Assembly (NCBI RefSeq): GCF_009720385.1
Contig: NZ_ML769304.1
Coordinates: forward strand, 248,001 to 312,000
DNA: 64,000 bases
DNA from: Catellatospora vulcania
Lineage (GTDB): Bacteria > Actinomycetota > Actinomycetes > Mycobacteriales > Micromonosporaceae
Reading direction: 5' to 3'
The notes below the pieces were generated by a model. The model did no database searches, had not been told where the DNA came from, and saw nothing but the letters and a program-made list of their open reading frames with translations. Of this stretch, positions 49,402 to 52,203 are shown one piece after another (within the stretch, counting starts at the first letter, position 1; each line of letters begins with the position of its first letter). Both the position numbers and the translations under genes were made by a program.

Positions 49402-52203
49402 TCAGCGCAGGGTCGGGACCGCGCCGTTGTCGACCACGGCCACCTCGACGCCGGGCAGTTCCCCGGCCCACCGCCGGGCGGCGGCCAGCGCCGGACCCGT
49501 TTCGGCGCGGCCGAGACCGACGGCGTAGCGGGTCACCGCCCCCGTCTCGAACGGCCGCGGCCAGGCGTGCGCGTGGGTGGCCCCGGCCTCGCCGAGCAGG
49601 CTCAGCAGGGCGCGCATCCGCCCGCGGACCCGGCCGGGTGTCGCCTCGTCGCCCCGGACCTCGACCACGAGCCAGTGGGCGTGCCGCCGGTGCAGCGGTG
49701 GCGGCGCGGTGAGCAGCGGCCACCACGCCTCGACACCGACCCCCGACGCCTCCTCCGTGGTCTCCCACGCCTGGTAGAGCTCCTGGACGAGCAGCTCCCA
49801 CCCGCCCGGTCCGACCTGGTCGGCGCAGCTGCGCACGGGCGCGGTCGGCGTCAGCAGGGCGCCTTCGGGATGTACGCCGCCGACGTCGCCGGTCAGCGAC
49901 ACCGCCTGCCGCCAGTCCCATGCGGCCCAGTCCGCGAAGAACCGCCGCAGCAGCGCCTGCGCGGTCGCGTCGACCGGCGCGCCGAGCACGGTCCGTGCGG
50001 CGAGCACCGACCAGGCCAGACCGGGCAGCCCGCCGAACGGCGCGCTGTCGAGCCCCTTCGCTCGCGCCCAGCCCTTCACCTGTAGCGCGAGCAGCGCGAA
50101 CGCGGCGTGCCGGGAGCCGGTCGCGGCGCGTACCGCAGCGGCGTCGCTGACCGCGCTCAGCGCCACGGCGGCGTCCTGCCCCAGCTCGGCGCGGCGGCCG
50201 ACCGCCTCGGCGGGATCGAGCCCACCCGTGCCGACCGCCACCAGGTCCACGTCGAGGTCCCCGACCGACAACCGCAGCCTGGGCACCCGGGCCTCGGCCA
50301 CCGACCGCACCGCGACCGCGTCGGGCAGCGCCCGCGTCACCCGCGCCGCCACCTCGGCGAGATCGGCCTGGCCCGGCAGCGCCGCCACCAGGTCCAGGTC
50401 GGCTCCCGGCAGCGCGCAGCCCATCCGCCGCGATCCGGTGACGTGTACGACGCCCTCGGCGAACGCCCCGGCCAGGCGCTCGACGACGGAGGCCACGCCT
50501 GCCTCGACGGCCGACGGGGTCGGGGTGGCCTCGGTGTCCGGGTGGGGCGGGTCGGGCAGCCAGCGCAGGTCGCCGGCGCCGAGCGTCAGCACGGCGCGCG
50601 GGCGCATCGGCTCGTCGCCGCGCCGCGACAGCAGCACCAGCTCGCCGACCTGCGCCCGGGACTCGCCGAGTGCGGCGGCACAGGCGGCGGCGACCCGCTG
50701 CGGGTCGCGGCTGCGGCCCAGGGTCAGATGCGGCGTGAAGCCCTCGGCCCGGCCGCGGCAGCGCGGGAATAGCTGCCGCAGCGCCTGCCAGAGGCGATGC
50801 CAGGGGGCGTCACCGTCGGCGGCCGGGTCGAGCCAGATCGTCGCGTCGTCGCGATGGCCGAACGTGTGCACGCCGCCCAGCCGCACCGGGAACGGCGGGA
50901 CCTCGGCTGCGGCCGCGGCCAGCAGCGGCGCGGCCCGCTCGAAGTCGGCCTCGGGCACGAACCCGAACAGCACGTTCACGTGCGGCGGCCAGCGGTGGAA
51001 CTGCGGGTCGTGGGCCTGCCGCAGCTCCTGGACCGCCGGCCACAGCCGCTCGGGCGGCAGCCAGGCCAGCGCGGTCCGCGCGGTCGGCGCCACGTCGAGC
51101 ACGTCGTTCTCGCTCGCCCCGGCGACTGCCAGGTCGACCACCACGCCGTAGTGGTCGGACGGGAAGAGCCCGTCCGGCTCGGGGCGGTCGCCGATCAGCA
51201 CGGCCGAGGTGGCCGCGGCGCCGCGCAGCAGGACCCGGTCCAGCCGCCGGGCCGCGCCGGACAGCGAGGACACCGCCGCCAGCGGATTGGCGACCGGGTC
51301 GAAGGTGGGTGTGGCGTCGCCCGGCCCGTGCACCTGTGTCCAGGCGTCGTCCATGCCGAGCATCGCGGTCGGCGCGCTGCCGTCGTCGTTGAAGTCGCCG
51401 AGCAGCACCACGTCGGCCCCGATGTCGGACAGGCCCTCCGCCAGCAGGGTCAGCTCGTCCTGCCTGCGCCGCGCGCCGTCGGCCGAGTGGTCGCTGCTCA
51501 GGTGCGTGGCCGCGACGGCCAGCGGCCCGGCCGCGGTGTCGACGACGATCGCGACGACGGCTTTGTGCGGGGCGAGCCGGTGGCTGCCGACCTCCCGTAC
51601 GGGCAGCCGGCTGAGCAGCACCAGCCCGCCGGGGACGGTTTCGTCGAGTGCGGAGCTCACGGTGTACCGGTCGCGTGTCCAGGGCGCGGCGCACAGCATG
51701 GTGAGCAGTTCCGCTTCGACCTCCTGCAGCGCGATGACGTCGGCGTCGGCGGCCTCGATCGCCGCCAGCAGCAGTGGCCGCCGCCGGGCGGTGTCGATGC
51801 GGTCGCTGTCGTACCGGTTCCAGAGGGTGTTCCAGGTGAGCAGCCGCAGCCGGCCGGGTGCGGCGGGTTCCGGGGCGGGCGCGGGACGCCAACCCCGGCC
51901 CGGCTGGAAGGTGTGCGCCGTGCCCGGCGTGAAGAACGGCGCGGGCAGCAGGCCCTGGTGGCGCACGAGACCCGCGCCGGAGGTGTCGACCCGGTCGACG
52001 CCGGTGGCGCGATCCCAGACGAGCACGCCGTCGGCCTCGATGAACATCACCCGGTGCCACGGGACGTCGCCGCCGGGCTTGAACGCGGGCAGCGGCACCC
52101 GCTTGGGCCCGGCCCCGCGCTGGCGTACGCCGAGCACGAAGCGTTCCGGGTCGAACCGCGGATCCCAGCGCACCCGGTGGTAGATCTGCTCGCTGGTACG
52201 CAT
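49402..52203 (-). CDS. MJ1316(DUF504)-EEP-2H-poly(A) polymerase fusion, RNA-end processing
   Basis: 933 aa, four modules. (1) 3-72: MJ1316/DUF504 RNA-end-recognition domain (IYHRVRWDPRFD, PWHRVMFIEADGVLVWDR). (2) 118-360: endonuclease/exonuclease/phosphatase with TWNTLWN, LQEVE (Glu161), LLGDFND (Asp270, Asn272), LDRVLL and SDHYG (Asp350, His351). (3) about 385-550: 2H phosphoesterase with PHVNVLFGF (His408) and PHLTLGR (His492, Thr494). (4) 565-933: nucleotidyltransferase with GSRRMGCALPGADLDL (Asp602, Asp604), a third acid near 651-653, and the eukaryotic-type poly(A) polymerase central and RNA-binding parts. ATG 52203 follows cggggga. Confidence 0.85.
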   Translation of the reverse strand: MRTSEQIYHRVRWDPRFDPERFVLGVRQRGAGPKRVPLPAFKPGGDVPWHRVMFIEADGVLVWDRATGVDRVDTSGAGLVRHQGLLPAPFFTPGTAHTFQPGRGWRPAPAPEPAAPGRLRLLTWNTLWNRYDSDRIDTARRRPLLLAAIEAADADVIALQEVEAELLTMLCAAPWTRDRYTVSSALDETVPGGLVLLSRLPVREVGSHRLAPHKAVVAIVVDTAAGPLAVAATHLSSDHSADGARRRQDELTLLAEGLSDIGADVVLLGDFNDDGSAPTAMLGMDDAWTQVHGPGDATPTFDPVANPLAAVSSLSGAARRLDRVLLRGAAATSAVLIGDRPEPDGLFPSDHYGVVVDLAVAGASENDVLDVAPTARTALAWLPPERLWPAVQELRQAHDPQFHRWPPHVNVLFGFVPEADFERAAPLLAAAAAEVPPFPVRLGGVHTFGHRDDATIWLDPAADGDAPWHRLWQALRQLFPRCRGRAEGFTPHLTLGRSRDPQRVAAACAAALGESRAQVGELVLLSRRGDEPMRPRAVLTLGAGDLRWLPDPPHPDTEATPTPSAVEAGVASVVERLAGAFAEGVVHVTGSRRMGCALPGADLDLVAALPGQADLAEVAARVTRALPDAVAVRSVAEARVPRLRLSVGDLDVDLVAVGTGGLDPAEAVGRRAELGQDAAVALSAVSDAAAVRAATGSRHAAFALLALQVKGWARAKGLDSAPFGGLPGLAWSVLAARTVLGAPVDATAQALLRRFFADWAAWDWRQAVSLTGDVGGVHPEGALLTPTAPVRSCADQVGPGGWELLVQELYQAWETTEEASGVGVEAWWPLLTAPPPLHRRHAHWLVVEVRGDEATPGRVRGRMRALLSLLGEAGATHAHAWPRPFETGAVTRYAVGLGRAETGPALAAARRWAGELPGVEVAVVDNGAVPTLR

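Follow-up and report, generated by a model that had tools for sequence, protein, structure and literature searches.

What does a bacterial protein do that carries three end-processing domains and, in the same chain, a poly(A) polymerase of the eukaryotic type? The gene for such a protein lies in the window analysed here, a 64,000-nucleotide stretch from the genome of the soil bacterium Catellatospora vulcania (contig NZ_ML769304.1, positions 248,001 to 312,000), and its product, hereafter the four-module protein, consists of an MJ1316 domain, an EEP phosphoesterase, a 2H phosphoesterase and a poly(A) polymerase (PAP). We judge it reasonably probable that this protein heals 3′ ends and adds nucleotides within a bacterial RNA repair system, the other half of which, in many relatives, is a ligase-kinase encoded in the same two-gene unit. 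The linked gene pair, together with the decayed HD domain of the ligase-kinase, is the new element of this analysis. We found no description of it in the literature searched, a search that did not include Burroughs and Aravind 2016, where the four-module architecture itself may already appear.

Four modules in one protein

A preliminary description of this DNA had read four modules into a single 933-residue protein, and Pfam bears this out. The N-terminus, which had been assigned to DUF504/MJ1316, matches MJ1316 (PF04457) over residues 1-65 (4.8e-18; 66.1 bits against a cut-off of 26.3), and matches above the curated cut-offs follow for Exo_endo_phos (residues 122-351, 1.4e-19), 2_5_RNA_ligase2 (residues 383-531, 1.8e-36) and PAP_central (residues 708-771, 4.2e-7). 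The nucleotidyltransferase part of the polymerase by itself stayed below Pfam cut-offs in the scan of the four-module protein. The assignment of the C-terminal module to the poly(A) polymerase family nevertheless stands, since human PAP gamma was matched in the PDB at 1.9e-12 from the single sequence and at 8.7e-36 by a 35-sequence profile (profile positions 592-902). Structural alignment to eukaryotic PAP covers 371 residues in three parts and reaches residue 933, and the order of the parts (nucleotidyltransferase, central, C-terminal RNA-binding-like) is that of the canonical eukaryotic enzyme. The coordinates and the motifs quoted earlier were recovered, and the strand, previously unstated, is minus, with the ATG at 52203 and the TGA at 49404-49402 (Table 1). 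The G+C content at third codon positions is 94%.

Table 1. Features of the window, with positions counted from its first nucleotide
Feature	Position	Strand	Basis
Four-module protein gene, 933 aa, stop included	49402..52203	-	Open reading frame and Pfam
MJ1316 domain, residues 1-65	52009..52203	-	Pfam and alignment of 84 proteins
EEP phosphoesterase, residues 116-362	51118..51858	-	Pfam, residue alignment, structural alignment
2H phosphoesterase, residues 383-531, motifs H408-V-N and H492-L-T	50611..51057	-	Pfam and alignment
PAP nucleotidyltransferase part, approximately residues 563-660; G590 S591, D602, D604, D653	50224..50517	-	
PAP central helical part, approximately residues 663-830	49714..50217	-	
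PAP C-terminal RNA-binding-like part, approximately residues 833-933	49405..49707	-	PDB profile and structural alignment
RtcB RNA ligase neighbour, probably outside the system	46816..48003	+	Met at 46816 gives 395 aa; longest open reading frame from 46528

A match to the four-module protein recurs in all 11 genomes of Catellatospora, and 321 of 378 pattern-matched stretches from GTDB species genomes encode a relative (tblastn, E <= 1e-3), so that the protein is not a product of chance. The best 80 of these 321 relatives, here called the named loci, include Streptomyces, Kitasatospora, Nonomuraea, Planomonospora and Catellatospora; part of the remaining 241 may match one domain only. A four-module match, in some cases weak or partial, was found in 34 of 200 genomes sampled from the family. 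In the phylum sample 11 of 396 genomes matched, with a long match in G222, G550 and the window's genome and a single-domain match in the other eight. Among plasmid records eight matched, three of them of at least 3 Mb, and the sole non-actinobacterial one is a plasmid of Calothrix brevissima NIES-22, which encodes a 991-residue four-module relative (L134:8995-11970; PAP_central 1.7e-29) whose sole annotation is 2′,3′-cyclic phosphodiesterase. This PAP_central match is stronger than those of the three actinobacterial relatives scanned; the plasmid is typed as conjugative, and a dynamin-like gene lies near the four-module gene. Two loci of a genus of the window's own family (g44; L021 and L022) encode diverged four-module proteins with a different C-terminal end and about 35% identity to the window's, and no ligase-kinase was found near them. 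Other origins and roles were tried and rejected: tblastn with the window's protein and the cyanobacterial relative gave no match in 50,697 phage records, two peptide patterns run over viral contigs returned 16 stretches, none of them a relative, and the four-module protein matched no PADLOC model of a known defence system at E <= 0.01.

Loss of catalytic residues in close homologues, a danger that the preliminary description had raised, was not what we found in an alignment of 84 proteins (the window's, those of the 80 named loci, two of them (L114 and L118) truncated at a contig end, the Calothrix protein and the two from g44). All 84 keep P48 W49 H50 R51 and W63 D64 R65 of MJ1316, residues N125, E161, H234, D270, N272, D322, D350 and H351 of the EEP domain, and both 2H histidines, H408 and H492. 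Within the 2H motifs, position 410 is N in 78 proteins and T in 6 (H-x-N against H-x-T), and position 494 is T in 52 and S in 32. The polymerase retains G590, S591 and D602 throughout, D604 in 82 and D653 in 83. The only exceptions among these aspartates come from Streptomyces sp. ISL-96 and ISL-100 (L053 and L091), with D604N in both and D653G in L091; they are also the only Streptomyces loci among the 80 without a ligase-kinase, and, being close relatives, they count as one event for D604N. The module thus resembles canonical eukaryotic PAP in its three parts, its GS pair and its three aspartates, and departs from it in being bacterial, in its fusion to three end-processing domains and at position 719. 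This position, aligned to a tyrosine of eukaryotic PAP that we take to be a base contact, is Asp in 83 of the 84 proteins and Tyr in the cyanobacterial one alone. Therefore 'poly(A)' is used here as a family name rather than as a statement of activity, and any adenine selectivity of the module would be putative, with the Asp as a warning.

A ligase-kinase gene upstream

Neighbours were tabulated across the relatives, a check set beforehand: in 72 of the 80 named loci tblastn placed the ligase and/or kinase part immediately upstream of the four-module gene, in the same orientation. Both the ligase and the kinase part are present in 67 of these and the kinase part alone in 5; the kinase-only matches end within 700 bases upstream at L065, L077, L084 and L096, and not at L080. 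The junction could be measured in 67 loci: it is a one-base stop/start overlap in 36, lies between -14 and +7 bases in 66, and is +50 in one. Clustering of the flanking open reading frames of the 80 loci yielded a single widely shared neighbour, present in 54, and the next clusters, among the 40 largest, comprise at most 13 loci each and resemble Streptomyces synteny. The eight loci lacking the partner belong to Catellatospora (L041-L044, L056, L068) and Streptomyces (L053, L091), and the whole genomes of L053, L091, L056 and L068 gave no ligase-kinase match at E <= 1e-20.

In the family sample a full-length ligase-kinase is encoded by 10 genomes (G017, G035, G042, G045, G063, G066, G082, G085, G109 and G117) and a remnant by G098, and all 11 match the four-module query, G117 with residues 1-184 only and G098 with C-terminal pieces only. 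At E <= 1e-30 the phylum sample has the ligase-kinase only in G222 and G550, and these, together with the window's genome, are the only ones there whose four-module match is long. Three large actinobacterial records of the plasmid collection (Nonomuraea gerenzanensis and two of Embleya) carry a near-full ligase-kinase, and in each the four-module match starts 6 bases past its end. Two further observations concern the ligase part. Of 47 ligase-kinase matches in the family, 36 cover just the first 190-250 residues at about 50% identity (for example in G142 and G171), and in 21 of these 36 the open frame does not exceed 260 residues. In G098 (C48:52274-53603) the ligase start adjoins the four-module C-terminal pieces, as though the two-gene unit had lost its central portion.

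The partner matches Pfam RNA_ligase (4.3e-33) and the kinase family AAA_33 (9.1e-20). Its ligase part is 57% identical over 203 residues to DRB0100 of Deinococcus radiodurans, with the same Lys40, and residues 208-557 of the L070 partner align nearly full length with HD-kinases of Deinococcus (E 2.2e-39, probability 100). The partner thus resembles a fusion of DRB0100 and DRB0098, two products of the DRB0098-DRB0099-DRB0100 operon, which encodes an HD-kinase (HD-PNK), a PARG-type macrodomain protein and a ligase. The units differ in that here ligase and kinase are fused in one protein, the HD domain is decayed and the MJ1316-EEP-2H-PAP protein is added. Among 60 partner proteins H51, H138 and D173 of the HD site are kept in none and D82 in 8, while eight kinase residues are kept in all 60; compared with an HD-PNK of the DRB0098 type, the partner therefore has an intact kinase site without an intact HD metal site. 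Since the HD site is largely decayed, the four-module protein probably supplies 3′ healing, and perhaps also nucleotide replacement. Where the two genes are linked, the pair would be a candidate RNA repair operon, a known kind.

Partnerless genomes and competing explanations

Several points weigh against assigning the four-module protein to an RNA repair unit, the activities of which are all predicted. The 80 named loci, as the best-scoring of 321, lean toward close kin, and of the 34 matching genomes in the family sample just 11 have a ligase-kinase, which lowers our confidence. The 23 family genomes without it comprise the 11 of Catellatospora, 7 of g44, 4 of g29/g37 (G038, G046, G160 and G187) and the weak match G074. 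No full ligase-kinase was found in the 11 Catellatospora genomes at E <= 1e-40, and the window's genome returned just weak kinase-like matches to the partner query; yet all 11 keep the four-module gene, and the window's copy has every PAP aspartate, which indicates that the protein can matter without its partner. In Calothrix, the four neighbours scanned with Pfam include no ligase. Decay of the HD domain is also partial by residue, as H81 is kept in 50 of the 60 partners and H139 in 48, and L070 itself retains the H-D pair, with H43 and H107 falling in alignment gaps. The structure model of the partner (m35db9d009572) has low confidence in the ligase part, and only the kinase part yields listed matches. 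Finally, passages of PMC1997131 report that DRB0100 is adenylated at K40 (AMP uptake) and joined no DNA or RNA tested, and there, as in parts of PMC11833690, DRB0098-0100 is interpreted as DNA or RNA repair.

In a 52-protein tree, built by a quick method and with 15 open forks among its 49 inner branches, Catellatospora sits inside partner-bearing lineages, and the presence and absence of the partner requires at least four changes; this position fits a loss of the partner in Catellatospora. About 137 kb before the window, the same genome encodes a separate pair (G000:C7:108802-110734; L129:6803-8735), an RNA ligase of 261 residues overlapping an HD-PNK of 386 residues in which eight checked HD positions are the same as in Deinococcus and kinase D333 is N. 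We conjecture that in this genus ligase and kinase activities could come from the separate pair or from RtcB. Elsewhere in the genome (C1:143032-143592, L130), a 649-residue frame matches RNA_ligase (PF09414) at 79 bits and is weakly similar to the partner's ligase.

Could RtcB itself be the partner in Catellatospora, with the four-module protein working alongside it, or feeding or starving it of the cyclic-phosphate ends on which RtcB acts? In the window RtcB is 1.4 kb from the four-module gene, and 7 of the 11 Catellatospora genomes have it no more than 3.5 kb away. The two genes are convergent, a DUF3103 gene (48150-49355) intervenes, and 3′ healing would take the RtcB substrate away; moreover, the separation is about 219 kb in G008, and the genes are on different contigs in G003, G009 and G010. 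As RtcB is present in 178 of 200 family genomes, its closeness is weak evidence, and among 88 loci searched it was near only in Catellatospora (6 loci, L026 and L044 being of one genome). RtcB was therefore dropped as the main explanation, and we regard such cooperation as very improbable. Instead of being rejoined, RNA fragments with blocked 3′ ends might be cleaned and then tailed for decay by exonucleases. Such tailing is established in bacteria, and a quality-control role of this kind requires no ligase, as would suit Catellatospora and the 12 other matching family genomes without a full partner. It leaves unaccounted for the overlapping or nearly overlapping ligase-kinase gene in 72 of 80 named loci, and the fact that, in the family and phylum samples, every genome with a full-length ligase-kinase also matched the four-module query; we consider it unlikely, though it deserves to be kept in mind.

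Repair of DNA or RNA-DNA breaks, in which a TDP2-like EEP domain and the ligase-kinase would act on radiation or topoisomerase damage, as in the DRB0098-0100 proposal, draws on the EEP domain being closest to TDP2 both by profile and by fold, which also counts against RNA repair. Known substrates of TDP2 are 5′-linked adducts. MJ1316, 2H and a eukaryote-type PAP are all RNA-end modules, and 2H chemistry requires a 2′-OH or a cyclic phosphate, so that DNA repair appears improbable to us despite the partner's homology to DRB0100 and the gamma-induction of the Deinococcus gene reported in a portion of PMC1997131. The cyanobacterial PAP part weakly matches a CBASS cyclase model (32.2 bits, the cut-off being 200), which raises the notion of a nucleotide-signal module whose polymerase would make 2′-5′ or cyclic oligonucleotides for the 2H and EEP domains to degrade. 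PAP-fold enzymes do include OAS and the CBASS cyclases, and some 2H and EEP enzymes cut 2′-5′ oligoadenylate; we find this explanation barely credible.

In a different part of the window (10308-13355, plus strand), the Dyp-type peroxidase match of a 1015-residue open reading frame is confined to the last third, so the true start perhaps lies further downstream, or the N-terminal portion is an extra domain.

Healing, refilling and sealing as predicted steps

Computation establishes the four modules with their conserved catalytic residues, the gene pair in 72 of 80 named loci, and the homology and HD decay of the partner. For an RNA repair system, the chemistry of each step, the sequence of steps, the RNA acted on and the choice of base are inferred as follows. 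The substrate would be an RNA cut by a metal-independent ribonuclease, with a 2′,3′-cyclic phosphate on one side of the break and a 5′-OH on the other. The MJ1316 domain would grip the cyclic end, the 2H domain, as 2H enzymes do, would open the cyclic phosphate, the EEP domain would strip the remaining phosphate, and the PAP domain could then restore the lost nucleotide or nucleotides onto the 3′-OH. Classical RNA ligases require a 5′-phosphate and a 3′-OH; the partner kinase, as polynucleotide kinases do, would phosphorylate the 5′-OH, and the partner ligase would then seal. The partner is related to the pair of the DRB0100/DRB0098 type, and with its HD 3′-healing site decayed the four-module protein would have taken that step over. 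The preliminary description had proposed a single machine that finds, heals and extends damaged ends; this reading is supported in part, and the predicted sealing partner is a separate gene, linked in 72 of 80 loci. ANGEL2-like chemistry of the EEP module is putative; ANGEL2 is not among the 50 structural matches listed for this domain, though it may still be a relative. The ANGEL2 reaction proceeds via a 2′-phosphate, as stated in a section of PMC13247085.

Known systems share parts of this predicted division of labour. The fungal and plant tRNA ligase Trl1 unites a ligase, a kinase and a cyclic phosphodiesterase of the 2H type in a single chain, and so resembles the pair, by description, in its set of activities, whereas here 2H is in the second protein alongside MJ1316, EEP and PAP. 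LENG9 consists of MJ1316 and a 2H domain, a likeness again by description only. The Pnkp1-Rnl-Hen1 complex, as described in part of PMC4411300, is likewise bacterial RNA repair; in the present pair 3′ healing is predicted to fall to 2H and EEP, and a polymerase is added. A passage of PMC6514570, citing Burroughs and Aravind 2016, mentions diverse fusions of MJ1316 to RNA-repair domains across eukaryotes and states its binding to 2′,3′-cyclic RNA ends, which the preliminary description had called a prediction. In jumbo phages, according to sections of PMC7824862, kinases and phosphoesterases ready ends for ATP-grasp ligases and nucleotidyltransferases replace missing bases, and the same source describes RloC as a nuclease that excises a nucleotide; by analogy, the PAP module may fill a refilling role akin to that of the phage nucleotidyltransferases. 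Another polymerase, Thg1, has bacterial gene neighbourhoods that include a polynucleotide kinase and, in some cases, an RNA ligase (excerpted in PMC2904730).

A fuller picture, possible in our view though doubtful, is a heal-refill-seal RNA repair machine of two proteins, in which the dead HD domain of the ligase-kinase would have become a scaffold, and the other protein would open cyclic ends, remove the phosphate and replace lost nucleotides with its eukaryote-type PAP. Ligases of the DRB0100 type may require a special end made by such a partner, for example the 2′-phosphate left by a 2H enzyme, and, if so, this could account for the lack of sealing by DRB0100 in vitro; the gene pair offers a testable reason for its joining nothing in the 2007 assays. 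It also gives a eukaryote-type poly(A) polymerase a bacterial setting. Bacteria living among toxin-armed neighbours must repair cut tRNA and rRNA, and the components of one such kit, suggested by gene linkage to consist of two proteins that mend cut RNA, can be read from genomes: the likely division of labour is between one protein without 3′ healing and an operon partner with two candidate replacements for it and a polymerase capable of refilling.

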